The position numbers and the translations under genes were made by a program. 44,813 bases of DNA from contig QHVI01000079.1 in NCBI GenBank assembly GCA_003223515.1, forward strand, positions 1 to 44,813. The letters run 5' to 3'. This DNA is from Candidatus Angelobacter sp. Gp1-AA117 (GTDB lineage: Bacteria > Acidobacteriota > Terriglobia > Terriglobales > Acidobacteriaceae). Under the pieces are notes generated by a model. The model had not been told where the DNA came from. It ran no database searches and saw only the letters and a list, made by a program, of their open reading frames with translations. Within the stretch, counting starts at the first letter, position 1. The number at the start of each line of letters is the position of its first letter. This document shows, one piece after another, positions 3,251 to 18,496 of the stretch.

Positions 3251-4425
3251 CTATAGGATTGGAAATTGCCATCGGCATTACGGTGGTGTTGGCCGTTTAC
3301 GTAATCGTCTCGAGAAAACCGCAGCCGCAGGTAGAAGATCAAGCCATGCGGGCACTTCAGAGTGACGTGCAGGCCCTCCGCGATGCCACGCAGCAATCCA
3401 TTCTGAGCGTGAGCAGCACCTTCGGCTCGCAATTGCAGACCGTCACCTCGCATGTGCAGGGTTCGCTGGCAACGGTAACCACGCAACTGGGCGACCGCCT
3501 GGATGCCATGAACCGCCAGGTCACCGAGCAGTTGAACCAGAGCACGGTGCAGATGAACGCCAGCACCGATGCGGTAAACCAGCGCGTGGCCTCCGTCCAG
3601 ATGTTCTTTTCCGGATTGCAGAAGCAGGTGGGCGAGATGACCGAGTCGGCCCGCCAGCTTTCGGAATTATCAAGATCAGTCACGGCCATCGAGCATGTGC
3701 TGCGCGCTCCTAAGATGCGTGGCAACTTTGGCGAAGAGCAGCTTGAGAACCTGCTGGCGCTGGTTTTCTCTAAGCAGCAGTTCCAGATGCAGTACCGCTT
3801 TGCCTCCGGCGAGATAGCGGATGCCGTCATCTTTCTGCCGCTGGGCAATGTGCCGGTCGATTCCAAGTTCCCGCTGGAAAACTTTCGCCGCATCGGCGAG
3901 GCCGCCACCGATGAAGAAAAGAAATCGGCCCGCCGCGACTTCCTGCGCGATGTAAGAAAGCGGGTGGATGAGATTGCCGTCAAATATATCCGCCCGGCGG
4001 ACGGCACTCTGCCCTTTGCCTTGATGTACGTTCCCGCCGAGAACGTCTATTACGAAACCATCATCCGTGATGATGATGGCAACCAGCTCTACCGCTACTG
4101 CCTGGAAAAACGCGTGGTCCCGGTCTCGCCCAACTCTCTCTATGCCTATCTGCAGACGATCCTGGTTGGCCTGAAAGGCCTGCAGGTAAGCCAAAGGGCT
4201 GAAACCATCGTGCGCGAGATTGAGTCACTGCGAATTGAACTGGAGAAGTTCGGCAAGGCCTACGAGACTATCGGTGGCCACATCCGCAACGCCGCCACCA
4301 AGTTCGAAGACGGCAACAAGCTGCTCACCAAAGTGGAACTGCGCGTGGAAAGCCTGGTAGGCAACGGCGCCGAACAAGTAGAGCTGTTCGCCGAGGAGAA
4401 GAAGTCACTGGGAGCAGCAAGATAG
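3247..4425 (+). CDS. rmuC: RmuC family DNA recombination protein
   Basis: A 392-residue RmuC-family protein. An N-terminal membrane segment (about residues 3-20) is followed by a long Gln/Ala/Ser-rich coiled coil (about 35-165) and the conserved RmuC domain, with MRGNFGEEQLENLL, PVDSKFPLENF and YVPAENVYYE recognisable. RmuC proteins are linked to limiting inversions at short inverted repeats and to DNA recombination, probably as nucleases of the restriction-endonuclease fold. The start at 3247 overlaps the helicase stop as ATGA; upstream in-frame starts would run into the helicase gene and add 21 unrelated residues. Coupling to a helicase-nuclease suggests that the two act on the same DNA ends (inference). 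Confidence 0.93.
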   Translation: MTIGLEIAIGITVVLAVYVIVSRKPQPQVEDQAMRALQSDVQALRDATQQSILSVSSTFGSQLQTVTSHVQGSLATVTTQLGDRLDAMNRQVTEQLNQSTVQMNASTDAVNQRVASVQMFFSGLQKQVGEMTESARQLSELSRSVTAIEHVLRAPKMRGNFGEEQLENLLALVFSKQQFQMQYRFASGEIADAVIFLPLGNVPVDSKFPLENFRRIGEAATDEEKKSARRDFLRDVRKRVDEIAVKYIRPADGTLPFALMYVPAENVYYETIIRDDDGNQLYRYCLEKRVVPVSPNSLYAYLQTILVGLKGLQVSQRAETIVREIESLRIELEKFGKAYETIGGHIRNAATKFEDGNKLLTKVELRVESLVGNGAEQVELFAEEKKSLGAAR

Positions 4426-10335: not shown

Positions 10336-11979
10336 ATGAAGCGTATCGCCTCTGTTCTGTTATTGCTCTTGTGTTGTGCATTCGTTGCAGCCCAGCATCA
10401 GCACGCTCCGGCAAAGGGCACGAATGTTGCCCTGATGCCCGGCTTGGGAGACCTCCATCATCCGGTCACTACCAGCAATCCTGAGGCGCAGAAGTTTTTC
10501 GACCAGGGGCTGCGGCTGATCTATGCCTTCAATCATCAGGAAGCCACGAGTTCGTTCCAGCGTGCAGCGGAGCTCGATCCCAGGATGGCGATGGCCTGGT
10601 GGGGCATTGCGGAATCCATTGGCCCGAACTACAACGATCCTGCTGATCCCGACCGCTTCAAGCAGGCGCATGAGGCGATTCAGAAGGCGCAGGAACTGGG
10701 GGCCAATGCCTCGCCCAGCGAACGTGCTTACATCGCTGCTCTGGCCAAACGGTTTCCCGCAGACCCCAATGCCGATCTCCAGGCAGCGGCACAGCAGTAT
10801 GTGGATGCCATGCGCGAACTGGTGAAACAGTTCCCTGACGATCTGGATGCCGCCACTCTCTTTGCCGAAGCGGGCATGAACCTGCATCCCTGGGGCCTGT
10901 GGCATGTGGATGGCTCGCCGGAAGCCGGTACGCAGGAAATTGTCGCTACTCTAGAATCCGTGATCCGCCGCGATCCCAATCACATGGGCGCGGTCCACTA
11001 TTACATCCACACGGTTGAGGCTTCACCGAATCCTGAGAAGGCATTGGCAGCAGCCAACCGGCTGGCCGCTCTGGCGCCGTCCGCCGGGCACCTGGTCCAC
11101 ATGCCCGGACACGTTTATATCCGCACTGGCGATTTTGACGCAGCCGTAAAGACCAACGAACTCGCGGCCGCAGCCGACCGCAACTACATCCAGAGGCGAG
11201 GCGGCGAGGGCATGTATCCCGCCATGTATTACAGCCATAACCTGCATTTCATCGCCTCCTGCGCCAGCATGGAAGGCGACTATCTTCGCGCCCACAAAGC
11301 TGCCGGGATGCTGGCCGCGCACGTTGGCCCTCATGTAAAGGAGATGCCGCCGCTGGAAGGCTTTATGACCATACCGGCCTCGGTGGAGCTGCGCTTTGAT
11401 AAATGGGACCAGATTCTCAAGATGCCGCAGCCTGATCCTTCCATGAAAGGCGCTACCGTGTTCTGGCATTTCACTCGTGGCATGGCGCTGGCTGGAAGCG
11501 GCCAGCCTGCCGAAGCCGGGGCTGAACTCAACTTTCTTTCTGAAGCGGAGAAGCAGACGCCGGAAGAAGTAATCTTCAATGCGCCCATCAATAACAAGCT
11601 CAAGGACATTCTGAAGATTGCCGAAAACGTGCTCGGCGCCAAGATCGCAGTGGCCCGGCATGACAACGCTGCTGCCGTTCCCCTGTTGCGCCAGGCCGTA
11701 GCTATACAGGACACCCTCAAGTACGGCGAACCGCCTGACTGGTTCTACCCCGTACGCGAGTCGCTCGGCGCCGTTCTGCTGCTCAGCGGCAATGCGTCGG
11801 AAGCCGAGAAAGTCTTCCGTGCAGACCTGGATCGCAACCCGCGTAATCCCCGTTCCCTGTTTGGCCTGCGTGAAGCTCTCAAAGCCCAGAACCGCGCCTA
11901 CGACGCCCAATTCGTGAACAAACAATTCCAGTCATCATGGAAGAGCACCGAAAAGCTGCGTGTAGAAGACCTGGCGTAG
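10336..11979 (+). CDS. Secreted TPR-repeat protein
   Basis: A 547-residue protein with a cleavable signal peptide (MKRIASVLLLLLCCAFVAAQ). Helical tetratricopeptide-type pairs follow, including NPEAQKFFDQGLRLIYAFNH, AATSSFQRAAELDPRMAMAWWG and a C-terminal set (SEAEKVFRADLDRNPRNPRSLFGL). This layout is common in acidobacterial exported proteins of unknown role; the repeats probably mediate protein contacts in the periplasm. The start ATG 10336 is preceded by GGGAGAA; an earlier in-frame ATG at 10294 would spoil the signal peptide. The gene stands alone between repeats. Confidence 0.88.
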   Translation: MKRIASVLLLLLCCAFVAAQHQHAPAKGTNVALMPGLGDLHHPVTTSNPEAQKFFDQGLRLIYAFNHQEATSSFQRAAELDPRMAMAWWGIAESIGPNYNDPADPDRFKQAHEAIQKAQELGANASPSERAYIAALAKRFPADPNADLQAAAQQYVDAMRELVKQFPDDLDAATLFAEAGMNLHPWGLWHVDGSPEAGTQEIVATLESVIRRDPNHMGAVHYYIHTVEASPNPEKALAAANRLAALAPSAGHLVHMPGHVYIRTGDFDAAVKTNELAAAADRNYIQRRGGEGMYPAMYYSHNLHFIASCASMEGDYLRAHKAAGMLAAHVGPHVKEMPPLEGFMTIPASVELRFDKWDQILKMPQPDPSMKGATVFWHFTRGMALAGSGQPAEAGAELNFLSEAEKQTPEEVIFNAPINNKLKDILKIAENVLGAKIAVARHDNAAAVPLLRQAVAIQDTLKYGEPPDWFYPVRESLGAVLLLSGNASEAEKVFRADLDRNPRNPRSLFGLREALKAQNRAYDAQFVNKQFQSSWKSTEKLRVEDLA

Positions 11980-12295
11980 CCGCAAAAGACGGGTCAATCC
12001 CATATCGGTACCTCTCTATCCCCATCTTCTGACTCCCGTAAAGTCGCGCGATTCGCGTCATTCGCGGCTTACGTCCGAGGTCTCAAACAGCTTTCCTCTG
12101 TGCCCTTTGTGAAACCTTTGTGCCCTCCCATGAATAATGTCTCTGTGGTTAGCTTTTGGTTGTGGCTCCGCCACGCTGTATTCTCTGCAAGATTTTCAAT
12201 TATGGCAATTACAGATTTTGGCATTTTTGGCAATTCATGGCGGCCCGATCTGTTCATGTACAATTTTCTCGATAAGCTCCACGTAAGGAGGGAGT
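11980..12295 (+). repeat. Intergenic region with several repeat words
   Basis: No gene is seen in these 316 bases. Repeats present: GCGCGATTCGCGTCATTCGCGGCTTACG (about 12046-12072), CCTCTGTGCCCTTTGTGAAACCTTTGTGCCC (about 12098-12127), the tail TTGTGGCTCCGCCACGCTGT (12159-12178), and an AT-rich array TGGCAATT-ACAGATTT-TGGCATTT-TTGGCAATT (12201-12235). The cupin promoter must lie at the right end. Confidence 0.7.
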
Positions 12296-13629: not shown

Positions 13630-14337
13630 TCAGGTGGCGGTGGTGACGAAGTCGGCGAACCAACCAGGGCCAGCGGAGCTGACCACGATGATTTTCTTGC
13701 ACACAGGCACGGCGTTGTCATAGGCATCTCCGGCCTCCGGCATGAATGCGGCTTCGTCCTGAAACAATCCCCAGGGGTGATAAGAGCGAATCTGGTCGCC
13801 ACCGCCAGGAATCCCGATAATGCGGCTGCCGTGGGCGAACTCCAGCGATCCTTGCGCCTGGATCCTGGACTTGAGAGGGAAAGCCCTACGAAGCACCTCA
13901 TCCTGCTGGTGGTAGAGAGTTTTGGCATACTCCACGAGTTCAAATGCCTTCTCTTCCTTCTGTGACTGGAAGAGTACCTCGATTCCGGGATTGGTCATGG
14001 CGGCGTGAGTGAAGAGTCCTACACCAAGCCAGGAGACCATCATGTCCCTGGATTTCTCGATGAATAATACCGGCGCCTGCTGGAACATATCGATGATAGG
14101 ACGGAGATAAGGCTTATCGGGGAAGGGGCGATAAGGCGACTGCGCGCCGGCTTCACGCCAATGACTGTCTTTGGTTTTGGTGTGCATCTGAAGCCAAATC
14201 AGAGGATCACTGAGCATCTGGCGGATGCGCACAACATCATCAGAGGCGGCCTGTATCTGCTGATAGCGCTGACGGAGCGCGAGGCGGTCATCTACGGAAG
14301 CGGGATTATGAGGGCTCCACTTGCTTTTCGGTTTCAT
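13630..14337 (-). CDS. Truncated phage-type terminase large subunit (ATPase part)
   Basis: A 235-residue protein matching only the ATPase half of terminase large subunits. The Walker A-like region is LFIEKSRDMMVSW and the Walker B acidic pair is in LFQDEAAFM, followed by the coupling motif IIVVSSAGPG. Large terminases are about 450-600 residues with a C-terminal RNase H-like nuclease; here the frame ends just after the ATPase core, so the DNA-cutting domain is missing. The start ATG 14337 lies inside the small subunit gene (32-base overlap), a normal arrangement for this pair. No portal, capsid or tail genes are present, so this is a remnant or a repurposed ATPase. Confidence 0.8.
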   Translation of the reverse strand: MKPKSKWSPHNPASVDDRLALRQRYQQIQAASDDVVRIRQMLSDPLIWLQMHTKTKDSHWREAGAQSPYRPFPDKPYLRPIIDMFQQAPVLFIEKSRDMMVSWLGVGLFTHAAMTNPGIEVLFQSQKEEKAFELVEYAKTLYHQQDEVLRRAFPLKSRIQAQGSLEFAHGSRIIGIPGGGDQIRSYHPWGLFQDEAAFMPEAGDAYDNAVPVCKKIIVVSSAGPGWFADFVTTAT

Positions 14338-14788
14338 GCTGCGACTCCGGGAAATGGCCATGGGCAACGAAGTAATTGACTTCTTCTTCAGTACGGCCTT
14401 CAAGCTCACGGTCCAGATCAGCGGTACGGTTAATGCGAACATCAAAAATTTGAGCAAGAATTTCCGTGGCCTTGATCTGGCCGCTGATGGTGTTGCTGGT
14501 GTCTTTGGGCTTCATCTGGGCGAGTTCCCAGAGGTGGTTGATGAGATCGGCGCGGCAGACGGTAATTTCTTTAGCGAGAAGCTTTCCTGATTCTTTAATC
14601 ATAGTGTCCTGTTTGATTCTGAGTTGATTCCTGAACTTCTGGTTTTTCATGAGTTTGTATGCAGTCCTCTTGGGATTGCTGTAGCCAGCCCGGGCGACAG
14701 CAGAGATGATGTTGCCGGACCACAAAAGGACGGAGCATAACTGTTTTTGTGTGAGGAGATTTTGATCTTTGAGATTTCTTCTGTTCAT
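14306..14788 (-). CDS. Phage-type terminase small subunit
   Basis: A 160-residue protein. Its N-terminal helical DNA-binding region has IISAVARAGYSNPKRTAYKL followed by MKNQKF, as in terminase small subunits (Terminase_2 type: a repeated helix-turn-helix that recognises packaging sites). The centre (about 85-125) is a helical oligomerisation region. It precedes and overlaps the large subunit gene. The ATG at 14788 follows a poor ribosome binding site. Base composition is slightly more AT-rich than the surrounding genes. Confidence 0.78.
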   Translation of the reverse strand: MNRRNLKDQNLLTQKQLCSVLLWSGNIISAVARAGYSNPKRTAYKLMKNQKFRNQLRIKQDTMIKESGKLLAKEITVCRADLINHLWELAQMKPKDTSNTISGQIKATEILAQIFDVRINRTADLDRELEGRTEEEVNYFVAHGHFPESQHETEKQVEPS

Positions 14789-15120
14789 ATGCGGGAGTAT
14801 CCAGGGAGGTTTTTGGTCACCAAACCCCCGGGGGGTGGAGATTGTGATTGGCAGTTTTTAATTTGTCGTTTTTGAGAGACACGTGGCTCAAGCGTTGAAA
14901 AAGGCCACGAGAGTTAACGTCCTCGCGGAGGACGCGAATTTACGGTGCCACTATAGAACAGCTACTAGAGAATAGTCAAGAGAAAATTGCACCCCAAATT
15001 CCGGAGCAATTAGCAACTGGCAAATAGCAATTAGCAAGAACTAACCGGTGATCCAAAAGACCTTACCGCTGATGACGCTGATTTAACTGATTGACGCTGA
15101 TCGCATGCGTTGAGGTTATA
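14789..15120. other. Intergenic: dyads and repeat words upstream of terminase
   Basis: This 332-base stretch has no gene. It holds a dyad TTGGTCACCAA (about 14814-14824), a hairpin CGTCCTC-GCG-GAGGACG (14918-14934) and two repeat arrays: GCAATTAGCAACTGGCAAATAGCAATTAGC (about 15006-15036) and CCGCTGATGACGCTGATT... (about 15066-15100). The dyads lie where the terminase promoter or operator would be expected. Confidence 0.5.
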
Positions 15121-16074
15121 TCACCCTCGCAAAGTCAAGGACGGATGCCGCTTCCGCAGTACCGCAATCATGTGCTCTTTGGTGATGTGCGTATAGCGCT
15201 GTGTGGTGGCTATCGATGCGTGTCCCAGGAACTCCTGAACAATCCGGATATCCACACCATTGCGCAGCAGCAGCGTGGCCACGGTATGGCGCAGCATGTG
15301 CGGGGTCACGTGCCGCTCAATTCCGGCTAGTTCCCGCAATTGGGCAATTACATTGGCGATCCCCTGCGTGGAAAGCCGGCTGCCGGAGGCGTTCAGAAAT
15401 AGGGCTGTGCTGGTTGTGACGATTTTTGTTCTCGCCTGCAGATGCTCCCGCTGGATCTGCAACGTGGCGTCGTCCACGGCAAATGCCAGCCGGTCTCTTC
15501 CGCCCTTGCCCTGTACCCGGAACATGGCTTCCTGCAGGAGAAAGTCGCTGGTATCCAGCGTCGATACCTCGCCCACGCGCATGCCCGTAGCAAAGAGCAG
15601 GTCAACCAGGGCCATATTCCGCAAGGCGCGGTAGTACGCTCCGCCGGCGTCTTCATTTTGAGTTTTGGATTTCTCTTTTCGGGCTGCTGCATGATTCCGG
15701 CGGGCCTGCGTCAGCAGCGAACGCATTTCCTTGGCTGTCAGCGTGCGCGGGAGTTGTTCGATGCGTCCGATGCTCAGCTTCACCCGCCAGAAAGGCGATT
15801 CCGGCAAGACTCCCTTGCGCACCCAATACGAACAGAACACCCGCAGGGCAACCATCTTCCGCCGGATCGAAGCCGGGGAATACTCGTCCTTCTGCAGATG
15901 CGCCGCCCAGTTCTCGATCAGGGATCCACTTACGGCCTTGAGTTCCGCCTTTTTCCCTGCAAATTGCTGAAACTGCGCCAGATCAGATTGATAAGCGACC
16001 CTGGTCTTCTGCCGCCTTTCGTGGGTAGAGAAATACCCCTTCAGGAACGCAACACGCGCTTCTTTCAATTCCAT
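15121..16074 (-). CDS. Tyrosine recombinase (XerC/D or integrase type)
   Basis: A 317-residue site-specific recombinase. An N-terminal SAM-like core-binding domain (about residues 10-95) is followed by the catalytic domain. All catalytic residues are visible: Arg166 (TGMRVGE), Lys190 (GKGGRDRL), His259 and Arg262 (HMLRHT), His285 (LGHAS) and the nucleophile Tyr294 (RYTH). Length fits the XerC/D class and many simple integrases. ATG 16074, with GGAG ten bases upstream, is preferred over TTG 16098. It reads away from the inverted-repeat segment that begins 85 bases upstream of its start, and toward the terminase remnant. It may be the chromosomal Xer protein or, as proposed here, act on the neighbouring repeats. 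Confidence 0.92.
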   Translation of the reverse strand: MELKEARVAFLKGYFSTHERRQKTRVAYQSDLAQFQQFAGKKAELKAVSGSLIENWAAHLQKDEYSPASIRRKMVALRVFCSYWVRKGVLPESPFWRVKLSIGRIEQLPRTLTAKEMRSLLTQARRNHAAARKEKSKTQNEDAGGAYYRALRNMALVDLLFATGMRVGEVSTLDTSDFLLQEAMFRVQGKGGRDRLAFAVDDATLQIQREHLQARTKIVTTSTALFLNASGSRLSTQGIANVIAQLRELAGIERHVTPHMLRHTVATLLLRNGVDIRIVQEFLGHASIATTQRYTHITKEHMIAVLRKRHPSLTLRG

Positions 16075-16158
16075 GCTCAGCTTGCTCCGCAGCAACAAGA
16101 ACCCAGGCCGGCTTAGAGGGCTCTTATACAGTAAGAGGCCTCAAGACGCAAAATCTTA

Positions 16159-16181
16159 TTTGGATAACTGAGAATTATCCG
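16159..16181 (+). repeat. Left 23-base inverted repeat (IR-L)
   Basis: It begins TTTGGATAACTG and ends AATTATCCG; its exact reverse complement is at 18343-18365. Inside it, GGATAA and TTATCC (16162-16167 and 16175-16180) form a dyad around the asymmetric seven-base spacer CTGAGAA. The match stops at once on both sides. Confidence 0.93.
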
Positions 16182-16198
16182 CCCCGCAGGTGTTTTTC

Positions 16199-17353
16199 GT
16201 GAAGGATACGAAACGTCTGACAGATATCATCGTGATCGGAGGGGGGCCAGCAGGCCTATTATTGTCTTCGAAGGCTGGCCGTCAATTGACAGTTCGTGTA
16301 GTTGAAAAGAATCGTCTTGGCCAAACATCCAAATTTTGGCTCACAGCTGAACGTAGATTGGTTCAACACGACCTCGCAGCAGCTGCTCAATATCGCACAA
16401 AACGCGCGACTTTGGGCACCTTTCAAGGCAGTTTTGCATTTGCCGAAGGACAATTTACTGTTATCAATGACACTGTGCTTCTGCGCCTTCTGTTAGAGCG
16501 TTGTAAAAATAGCGGTGTTCATCTTCTTGAGAATACAAAAGTACTTAGTATTAGCAAACAGAAGGAGAATTTAGCAGTTCAGACAACTGATGGAGAATAT
16601 TATGCCCGGCTGATTCTTGATGCATCTGGTGGCAATTCTCCATTCGCCAGTACTTTTCGTCTTCATCGGCTTGAGGGCTTTTACTCCATTTTTGGCGGTC
16701 ATCTTGAAAATTTGAATTTAAAGAGCGATGACATCATAGGCGCACATGTCATCCACTTCGGACATCCCGCACCTATTTTTGAGATTATTCCAACGAGTTC
16801 AACCTCTGCATTCTGTTGTGTCTTTATCATCGCAAAAGAAGCTGTTGATCCTCAAAGACTTGCAAAATCATTCGAAGAGCATATATTTCACAATCCTTTT
16901 TTTACTGTGAATCAGCAATTTACTCACAATCAGGACCTTAAGATGGGATTAATTCCAATAGGCCGCATAAAAAGGAGAGGAATGCCGGGCGTATTGCCTG
17001 TTGGTGAAGCAGGAATGCTTCAATCCCCTCTTCTTGGTGCTGCTTTGAATGAGGTTCTTGAGCAAGCAGACAGAATAATCAACTGCATAATGTATGGCTT
17101 CAGGAATCAAAGCTCTGGTATTATCCATCCGCACTTGGGTCTCCCACTTACCAAAACACTCAATGATAGGCTCCAACTAGCATTGGTTAAGCCGCTCTTG
17201 GACGGTACGCTTTCATCATTTGAACGATTAGTGGAATTTCTGAAGGCTGTGGGGCCGTCGCGGGTTTATCGCTTATTTGGCACAGAACTTGAATTAAGAG
17301 ATATGCCAACTATTGCTTGGGCACTAGCTCATTATTTGCTACATTCGCAGTAA
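16199..17353 (+). CDS. FAD-dependent oxidoreductase, lycopene-cyclase-like
   Basis: A flavoprotein of about 384 residues. The N-terminal Rossmann dinucleotide motif is DIIVIGGGPAGLLL (GxGxxG at residues 14-19). LILDASGGNS lies in the middle, and VGEAGMLQSPLLGAALNEVL sits where the second FAD-contact motif of the PHBH/lycopene-cyclase fold belongs. It may act on a hydrophobic substrate such as a quinone, isoprenoid or lipid; the actual substrate is not known. GTG 16199 is preceded by GCAGG at eight bases; GTG 16190 is the other choice. Codon use is AT-rich, unlike the core genes nearby, indicating transfer. It begins 17 bases after IR-L. Confidence 0.75.
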   Translation: MKDTKRLTDIIVIGGGPAGLLLSSKAGRQLTVRVVEKNRLGQTSKFWLTAERRLVQHDLAAAAQYRTKRATLGTFQGSFAFAEGQFTVINDTVLLRLLLERCKNSGVHLLENTKVLSISKQKENLAVQTTDGEYYARLILDASGGNSPFASTFRLHRLEGFYSIFGGHLENLNLKSDDIIGAHVIHFGHPAPIFEIIPTSSTSAFCCVFIIAKEAVDPQRLAKSFEEHIFHNPFFTVNQQFTHNQDLKMGLIPIGRIKRRGMPGVLPVGEAGMLQSPLLGAALNEVLEQADRIINCIMYGFRNQSSGIIHPHLGLPLTKTLNDRLQLALVKPLLDGTLSSFERLVEFLKAVGPSRVYRLFGTELELRDMPTIAWALAHYLLHSQ

Positions 17354-18343
17354 CTTTCGGAGAATCTGTCCTACCAGCTCCTTAGAGATAAACAAACTCC
17401 CAATATTGACGATATATGTAAGCGCAGCGCCTATTGCGATTGGAAAATTCAATGCGAAGCTGGGGGAACTCTCAATTCGTTTAATCAGATCTGCTAACGC
17501 ATTGACACGCTCAATATCTTGCTTCGATAACGATTGTGCATCTCCGATTAATGAGTTTATTTGCTCTTGATAAGAGATGATCAATCGATCTTTTTCTTGG
17601 CGTATAACTCGATGGATGACAAGATGAGGATAAGTCGTAATCGCTAAACAAAGTGGGACATATATGACCGGCCAGAATGCTCGGACTCCGTTTATCCAAG
17701 TTGAATTCCCACGCCATAAAGGCGACATTGTGCCTGCAAAAGCGAAAATATATCCCACCGTTACACTAAGGCTGAAAGTGACAAAATATACAGCTAATTT
17801 TTTTAGACTTCTTGTCTCTCCGGGAGAATAAACAAAAAATTTGATTTTAAATTCACTTATCTTGGTTGCAGTATATAAAACCTCAATTGCATGCCATGTG
17901 ATGAATCCGGCCATCGCACAAACGCCTGTGCATGTAAGCCACATAAAATATCGTGTCGGCGGGGGAACAGTGAATCCAAGCCGAGTAGTTGTTATGGTGC
18001 CCACGATCATGATGAAGATGATCACAACCCGTCGCAAGCGAGCAATCTTTTGTTGATCGGACCAACATTCGAATTTCGGACAATGAGATGCCTGTTGTAC
18101 GGTTTCGCTCAAAGCTGGAGAAAGCGCCATAAGTCCCAAGAACAACGCAGCTGCGACTGCAAAAAAGCCTTGGATATATAGCCATTCGCGCCAAAACAGA
18201 TGAATTGAGCCGCTTAATGCTGCAATCAGACATCCAAATAAACTCCACATCAATGCGCCCCCCAATGCTATGAACGCAAGAAGTGGCAAGCTTGAAGGAG
18301 GCCTGCATTTAGAACACAGTTCTACTAGGTCTCGGAATATCAC
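17339..18343 (-). CDS. Polytopic membrane protein, unknown family
   Basis: A 334-residue protein with about seven membrane helices (near residues 19-45, 53-78, 106-128, 134-157, 185-210, 222-245 and 298-320). A soluble, mostly helical loop (about 250-295) lies before the last helix. No motif allows naming. The GTG start (18343-18341) uses the innermost base of IR-R, so the repeat itself supplies the bases normally used for ribosome binding (GAGAA at seven bases); moving the site would change its leader. It faces the FAD gene, overlapping by 15 bases at the 3' ends. Base composition is AT-rich like its partner. A functional link with the flavoprotein is suggested only by co-location. Confidence 0.68.
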   Translation of the reverse strand: MIFRDLVELCSKCRPPSSLPLLAFIALGGALMWSLFGCLIAALSGSIHLFWREWLYIQGFFAVAAALFLGLMALSPALSETVQQASHCPKFECWSDQQKIARLRRVVIIFIMIVGTITTTRLGFTVPPPTRYFMWLTCTGVCAMAGFITWHAIEVLYTATKISEFKIKFFVYSPGETRSLKKLAVYFVTFSLSVTVGYIFAFAGTMSPLWRGNSTWINGVRAFWPVIYVPLCLAITTYPHLVIHRVIRQEKDRLIISYQEQINSLIGDAQSLSKQDIERVNALADLIKRIESSPSFALNFPIAIGAALTYIVNIGSLFISKELVGQILRKLLRM

Positions 18344-18365
18344 GGATAATTCTCAGTTATCCAAA
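18343..18365 (-). repeat. Right 23-base inverted repeat (IR-R)
   Basis: Exact reverse complement of IR-L (CGGATAATTC...AGTTATCCAAA on the plus strand). It carries the same GGATAA/TTATCC dyad with the spacer in opposite orientation. Confidence 0.93.
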
Positions 18366-18380
18366 ATGGAATTAGACTAA

Positions 18381-18407
18381 CGTGATAATACTATAGCTAT
18401 TATTACG
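18381..18407. promoter_or_regulatory. Dyad with 7-base spacer beside IR-R
   Basis: CGTGATAATA and TATTATTACG flank the seven-base centre CTATAGC; nine of ten arm positions are complementary. The arm-spacer-arm layout equals that inside IR-L/IR-R (7-base spacer, ATAA...TTAT next to it), though the sequence differs. It could be an attachment-type site, an operator, or the terminator region of the CPBP gene that ends at 18497. Confidence 0.45.
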
Positions 18408-18496
18408 TTTCTTTGCGAAAGCAGCTACTAAAAACTGCTCTATGCGCTTATGAACATTTGTTGCGCATTTTTAGGCTATTCATGCTGATGTTCTTG

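Follow-up and report, generated by a model that had tools for sequence, protein, structure and literature searches.

In the invertible G segment of phage Mu and the C segment of phage P1, convergent gene sets adjoin a recombinase gene, and the orientation of the segment sets which of them is expressed. In the shufflon, the tyrosine recombinase Rci acts on inverted sites with short spacers and swaps C-terminal coding segments of one gene. In Ureaplasma, DNA inversion at short inverted repeats alternates two oppositely oriented genes (mba/UU376 and UU172/UU171; PMC3047005), and three tyrosine recombinases are candidates (PMC3599477). At the vpma locus of Mycoplasma agalactiae, associated with Xer1, inversion joins a silent gene to the active promoter (PMC2268961, PMC3047005). 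In another case, inversion by a serine recombinase blocks a phage (PMC12529663). GT4 proteins, STAND-type NTPases and Mrr-type nucleases have been named as components of predicted conflict systems (PMC7159879, PMC8195603).

Here we analyse a 2.2 kb segment located within a 44,813-nt stretch of DNA, referred to as the window, which corresponds to contig C97 of a draft genome of 6.48 Mb. A literature search in one open collection revealed neither a description of such a module nor one of inversion in Acidobacteriota. In a sequence-only reading of this DNA, no described switch with this gene pair was known.

Organization of the segment and its inverted ends

The segment is bounded by two arms of 23 nt (16159-16181 and 18343-18365), which are 100% complementary and separated by 2161 nt. 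The left, recombinase-proximal site lies on the forward strand (core 16163-16179, GATAACTGAGAATTATC, spacer CTGAGAA), and the right, distal site, identical to the left one over 23 nt, lies on the reverse strand (core 18345-18361); both are directed inward. Each repeat is an imperfect palindrome, GGATAA-CTGAGAA-TTATCC, a feature that the sequence-only reading had not reported. When up to 3 mismatches are allowed, the core GGATAACTGAGAATTATCC is found in the window at the two arms only (mean of 0.02 places in shuffled sequences), and the same holds for the whole draft genome. The exact 23-mer is absent from the viral contigs scanned.

The GC content of the segment is 0.435, compared with 0.563 for 4 kb of DNA on each flank. 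The first gene (16190..17353, forward strand), proximal to the recombinase in the assembled orientation, encodes an FAD-dependent enzyme similar to lycopene cyclases and geranylgeranyl reductases, with an in-frame GTG located 10 nt behind the site. The matches are partial (Lycopene_cycl, 4.6e-13; geranylgeranyl reductase subfamily, 7.4e-13, under the NCBIfam cut-off). The second, distal gene (17339..18343, reverse strand) starts with a GTG located 1 nt behind its site and encodes a multi-pass membrane protein with no match in Pfam or NCBIfam. The two ORFs are convergent, with 3' ends that overlap over 15 nt. Neither the ORFs nor the Pfam matches of the segment include a transposase, and in the window sequence the segment ends show no target duplication beyond a single base. 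The perfect inverted ends, the two AT-rich, inward-facing genes overlapping tail to tail, and the lack of both transposase and target duplication had all been asserted in the sequence-only reading, and all hold. Its membrane protein with seven helices holds only in part: a simple hydropathy scan revealed five clear hydrophobic segments, which supports a multi-pass protein, and seven helices derive only from the model of a relative.

Of 396 genomes of the phylum, one, the genome of the window itself, gave a match to the membrane protein, and two contain relatives of the FAD enzyme at 1e-15. Viral contigs searched with both proteins, and plasmids searched with the FAD protein only, yielded no relatives. 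A viral or plasmid origin of the cargo was rejected because of the lack of viral relatives, the absence of the FAD protein from plasmids and the absence of the 23-mer from viral contigs. PADLOC returned no match for the window pair and two weak matches among 10 cargo proteins. A single-sequence model of the FAD protein was useless (mean pLDDT 34).

The adjoining recombinase and the flanks

An accessory XerC/D-like tyrosine recombinase gene (15121..16098, reverse strand) reads away from the segment. Its start lies 85 nt outside the repeat if the ATG at 16074 is used, as in the sequence-only reading, and 61 nt outside if translation begins at the TTG at 16098. The reading frame is intact and the expected residues are present. 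R174, K198, H267, R270, H293 and Y302, which we take to be the catalytic residues, are invariant in five aligned relatives, in line with the complete catalytic set claimed earlier. The protein scores 225 of 335 and 225 of 330 bits against the XerC and XerD models, below both cut-offs, and is rare, being found in 2 of 60 genomes of the family at 1e-35. A housekeeping XerC/XerD protein acting with dif was rejected on these two grounds. In the phylum, the family profile matches 18 of 396 genomes at 1e-45, many of the matches being other Xer proteins; at 1e-100, four genomes are retained (G000, G205, G083 and G246).

A divergent promoter is expected in the space between the recombinase and the proximal site (16099..16158). 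The AT-rich outer flank of the distal site (18366..18496) contains a sigma-70-like match (18419-18390) directed inward. In a promoter scan of the segment flanks, neither this match nor any other stood above chance (6 found, 4.3 expected). An imperfect inverted repeat (GGCTCTTA ... TAAGAGGCC) noticed by eye at about 16119-16140, between the recombinase and the site, is a possible operator. Just 3' of the recombinase lies a dispersed repeat about 45 nt long (15057-15101), which recurs many times, at 83-95% identity, in the same genome and in the genus. An ORF at 14306-14788 weakly matches a phage terminase small subunit (E 2.6e-4, under the Pfam cut-off).

Recurrence of the module

The sequence-only reading had suggested searching other genomes for the repeat. 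Relatives of the recombinase were collected through whole-genome searches, a scan of 84,980 species genomes (10 loci) and a scan of viral contigs; when viral contigs were scanned for sites, only those with at least 4 purines of 5 were kept. The same type of site was observed beside most of these recombinases, bounding 16 segments in 14 loci, mostly from Acidobacteriota; one locus is from a Chitinophagaceae bin. At each end of a segment lies a copy of GATAAC-NRRRRR-TTAT directed inward; a few have CATAAC instead. Judged from these comparisons of sequence, the module is recurrent and not a one-off.

A spacer-free motif scan of 30 loci detected 31 sites forming 17 inverted pairs with the same spacer, which correspond to 14 different segments, as the sites of L031 are doubled; pairing required identical spacers. 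Fifty shuffles of the 30 loci gave a mean of 0.24 sites, at most 2, and no pair; shuffling was a random walk in which dinucleotides were kept only approximately. Two further segments (L030 and the first of L066), whose spacers fall outside the scan motif, bring the total to 16. The only unpaired site of the scan is in L073. In all 16 segments, both ends have the same 7-nt spacer, and 10 different spacers were found overall. Spacers identical within pairs and different between them are expected from strand exchange by a tyrosine recombinase. L066 and L077 carry two segments each, with differing spacers, and in L077 each segment has its own recombinase. In L031, the sites at both segment ends are doubled in tandem (12195-12231 and 14400-14450), and one duplication takes in the first codons of the membrane-protein gene.

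Loci recovered repeatedly were counted once (L038 as L033, L040 as L032, L042 as L066, L039 as L067, L096 as L037 and L093 as L036). By coordinates, L100 equals L037 and L101 was taken as L043, while L026 lies inside L078. L097, the recombinase of which is divided between two ORFs (10412-11239) beside a single site, and L103 were left out of the recombinase tree.

Sites accompany all 13 recombinases of the clade that includes the window protein, those of L036 and L037 being assigned through sites at contig ends. In a second group of the tree, sites occur in 4 of 5 rows (L072, L077 twice and L078); the fifth, L073, has a single site of opposite sense and no partner. L075, the placement of which is unsure, ends in a site. 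No sites were found beside 11 other Xer homologues, some on short contigs (3.5-6 kb). The recombinase of L103 (7726-8700), 68% identical, has no site, even after a rescan with 2 mismatches, and is a counterexample to a strict link between recombinase and site; L103 is a contig of the viral collection with a ParA-like gene, recognized by eye. L067 features a third, unpaired site (3444-3460) with AAGGAG in its spacer; it is directed out of the segment, lies close to an ORF that looks transposase-like by eye, and is probably what is left of a second unit that has decayed. The CPBP-gene loci in G004 and G006 show neither recombinase nor site in the stretches fetched, and their flanks are too diverged to reveal an exact empty site.

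Sites as putative translation-start regions

Positions 8-12 are purines without exception in the 32 site copies. In 28 of the 32 junctions, an in-frame start codon is located at most 10 nt behind the site; in the remaining four, the start lies at 15 nt (L068), 38 and 225 nt (L077) or 41 nt (L067). The upstream in-frame stop is often within the site, being either the TAA of GATAAC or a TGA, TAG or TAA after it. The purine spacer resembles a Shine-Dalgarno sequence, and that of L066 contains AAGGAG. Pairing of the spacers with the anti-Shine-Dalgarno tail gave -3.97 kcal/mol, compared with -1.00 kcal/mol for shuffled spacers (0 of 2000 samples), a figure that is no true probability since the sites are related. 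We infer that the site seems to double as ribosome-binding region for both genes, which would explain both its inward direction and why both genes remain whole after a flip. The overlap with translation starts was not part of the sequence-only reading, nor were the recurrence of the module and the cargo rule described below.

Cargo of the segments

Each segment contains two convergent units, usually an enzyme unit opposite a sensor-like protein. Membrane proteins are paired with an FAD enzyme in the window, L031 and L078, with UbiA in L032, L043, L044 and the second segment of L066, and with a CDP-alcohol transferase in the second segment of L077. Elsewhere, GT4 faces a Mrr-type/AAA/TPR protein in L041 and an AAA/TPR protein in L030, and ATP-grasp faces an AAA protein in L033 and a TPR protein in the first segment of L066. 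A methyltransferase is combined with ATP-grasp opposite an AAA/TPR protein in L072 and with TauD opposite a WD40 protein in L068. GT2 and a carbamoyltransferase face an AAA/TPR protein with a weak Mrr match in L067, and a protein without Pfam match faces a TPR protein in the first segment of L077. Families were assigned by Pfam; several AAA assignments are under the Pfam cut-off, and the cargo of L068 was assigned from the 25 best Pfam families only. The rule that emerges is that membrane-embedded enzyme kinds pair with membrane proteins, and soluble enzyme kinds with NTPase/repeat proteins.

The enzyme side is adjacent to the recombinase in 10 of the 16 segments and the other side in 6; the unnamed protein of L077 was counted as enzyme side, and the second segment of L066 was judged by a recombinase about 4.4 kb away. 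Both orientations relative to the recombinase are observed in all four cargo kinds with at least two examples: FAD (window and L078 versus L031), UbiA (L043 and L066 versus L032 and L044), ATP-grasp (L033 and L066 versus L072) and GT4 (L041 versus L030). A fixed arrangement does not predict both orientations among homologous modules; repeated independent capture could give them.

In the independent loci L030 (15700-15860) and L041 (5500-5720), a +1 frame change interrupts the GT4 gene at one and the same point between its two domains. A programmed frameshift, a split gene or shared decay are alternatives.

The membrane-protein family

A cargo membrane protein distantly related to that of the window (L040:7875-8825) was modelled from a five-sequence alignment with a mean pLDDT of 81. 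A Foldseek search with this model placed insect gustatory or odorant receptors in 9 of the first 11 rows, none of them significant (E from 0.2). After realignment, insect receptors filled the first 16 rows (Z 8.2-10.9, 254-288 residues, rmsd 5.4-6.9), although helical models can reach such Z values by chance; the rows below were mostly helical bundles and coiled coils with no evident relation. The protein of the window may accordingly be described only as a distant relative of a protein whose predicted fold resembles insect chemoreceptors. Two of the four positions of the TM7 motif of 7TMIC proteins, (T/S)Yhhhhh(Q/K/E)(F/L/M) (PMC7746228), namely T and Q, occur in 3 of 8 cargo membrane proteins, and not in the window protein. 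Earlier studies reported no prokaryotic 7TMIC by structure (PMC9998090) or by sequence (PMC7746228), and a review states that there is support for transfer of 7TMIC to prokaryotes (PMC11526382). A 7TMIC-like chemoreceptor in the cargo is a lead that rests on the model of the L040 relative, not on one of the window protein.

The two main sets of cargo membrane proteins are related by profile comparison (probability 98; that of L077 was not included). Family A4 gave 3 matches in 2 of 396 genomes and was rejected as a marker of the modules, one of the three lying outside any segment. A 426-residue relative of the cargo membrane proteins with an N-terminal extension is encoded in L164 (8393-9673, G205:C2), outside any site-bounded segment.

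Traces of inversion in assemblies

Three contigs (G452:C597, G453:C10 and G123:C16) end at most 3 nt from the inner edge of a site, compared with 0.017 expected for 42 sites on 21 contigs; the test was post hoc. Assemblies are not expected to break at a repeat of only about 20 nt if the reads contain no second junction; we read these breaks as traces of flipping. Strain mixtures could contribute to them. The segment contig of G452 was not found. Contig G144:C430 starts with 41 nt that repeat, in inverted form, the 3' coding end of the recombinase and the site, joined to a methyltransferase gene, and is probably the alternative, flipped junction. A second copy of the recombinase, located on the far side, could be another source of this junction; none was seen in the 13 remaining loci whose sites are paired, and no further copy was found in that 67%-complete bin. 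The window contig features one orientation and no break at its sites.

Proposed mechanism and alternative explanations

We propose that the window carries a tyrosine-recombinase inversion module, in which the 2.2 kb segment is flipped and only the proximal gene is expressed, an interpretation that we hold with good, not full, confidence. The adjoining recombinase would bind the GGATAA/TTATCC arms, and strand exchange inside CTGAGAA, the 7-nt spacer common to both inverted sites, would invert the segment. The purine spacer would then serve as ribosome-binding sequence of whichever gene lies behind it, and transcription from the recombinase side would result in expression of the proximal gene alone, namely the FAD enzyme as assembled and the membrane protein after a flip. 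Inversion itself is very likely. Its dependence on this recombinase is inferred, as is flipping in this strain, and neither reads nor a second orientation of this locus are behind it. The invertible two-gene switch put forward in the sequence-only reading remains the best reading; it is strengthened by 16 segments of the same anatomy and by both orientations in relatives, and is not proven for the window locus. The recombinase-side promoter and the silence of the distal gene are likewise deduced. The recombinase is directed at the segment in 5 of the 14 loci (L044, L068, L072, L077 and L078), where it ends in the site or at most 49 nt before it, an arrangement that would permit co-transcription of the proximal gene; it is divergent in the nine remaining loci, among them that of the window. 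Counted against the inversion module are L103 without a site, the unpaired sites of L073 (of opposite sense) and L067, and the lack of a standout promoter.

The segment may be invertible without either/or expression, which we regard as possible but not favoured: outer promoters on both sides would express both genes, and a flip would swap promoter strength or do little. The AT-rich distal flank with its inward promoter-like match would fit, and the paired genes look functionally related, like partners, which sits oddly with mutual exclusion; yet that match is within chance, and a recombinase reading into the proximal gene in 5 of 14 loci favours one-sided transcription. Somewhat more doubtful is cassette exchange between genomes, mediated by the recombinase at the two inverted sites, with inversion as a by-product. 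Cargo kind does not track the recombinase tree, in which the window (FAD) goes with L041 (GT4) and L033 (ATP-grasp) with L030 (GT4), and both the low GC content of the window segment and the locus from the Chitinophagaceae bin point the same way; no empty or swapped site was seen, however, and the differing spacers would limit exchange among loci.

We consider it improbable that the segment was once invertible and is now locked, or that the sites are mainly recombinase operators or translation-start elements. The single orientation and unbroken sites of the window contig would agree with this, as would the overlap of sites with translation starts, but not the intact recombinase with its expected residues or the identity of the two sites over 23 nt. 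A transposon or non-autonomous element is hardly credible and was rejected: despite perfect terminal inverted repeats and AT-rich cargo, the segment is a single genomic copy without inner transposase or target duplication beyond one base, the recombinase lies outside the repeats, and spacers vary between loci but never within pairs.

If the inversion module is accepted, its two orientations might act as a sender/receiver switch, one yielding a small molecule and the other the matching receptor, which would divide clonal bacteria into producers and responders and avoid self-triggering. We offer this only as an unlikely conjecture, the main hint being that membrane enzymes face membrane proteins and soluble enzymes face NTPase/repeat proteins. 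Equally conjectural are the products, which would be of lipid/terpenoid type for FAD, UbiA or CDP-alcohol enzymes; those imagined for GT4, ATP-grasp or methyltransferase units (glycosylated, ligated or methylated) are no firmer. The receivers, which would be either chemoreceptor-like proteins of the membrane or NLR-like NTPases, are just as tentative. Certainty falls progressively from the invertible module to either/or expression to the sender/receiver switch.

Comparison with known systems

The modules would form a compact, recurrent class of invertible elements in Acidobacteriota, and their recombination site apparently also serves as ribosome-binding region. With the site motif, such modules can readily be located and their orientation scored in metagenome reads, and the rule of enzyme opposite sensor-like protein gives a testable prediction on the function of these orphan genes. 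If the sender/receiver idea were true, the split of clonal bacteria into producers and responders would be heritable.

Like the window module, the Mu G and P1 C segments have convergent gene sets in an invertible segment and an adjoining recombinase gene, but they rely on serine recombinases with an enhancer and on tail-fibre genes with a common constant part. We know of no ribosome-binding role of their sites. The shufflon with Rci shares the tyrosine recombinase and the short-spacer inverted sites and differs in that C-terminal segments of one gene are exchanged.

GT4, STAND-type NTPases and Mrr-type nucleases link the soluble class of cargo to predicted conflict systems, for which inversion is not described in the available passages of PMC7159879 and PMC8195603. 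The vpma locus with Xer1 also features a Xer-type tyrosine recombinase, but acts on a family of homologous surface lipoprotein genes, whereas the window module has a single pair of unrelated genes. The Ureaplasma switches are similar in their short inverted repeats, two-gene alternation and proposed tyrosine recombinases. In Ureaplasma, one repeat lies within the gene, the 5' coding part is exchanged and the products are surface antigens; in the window module, in contrast, the sites precede both starts, the genes are whole, the cargo is an enzyme with a sensor-like protein, and the recombinase is located at the module. The two-gene logic resembles that of Mu G and Ureaplasma, and the sites, the cargo rule and the hosts appear to be new.
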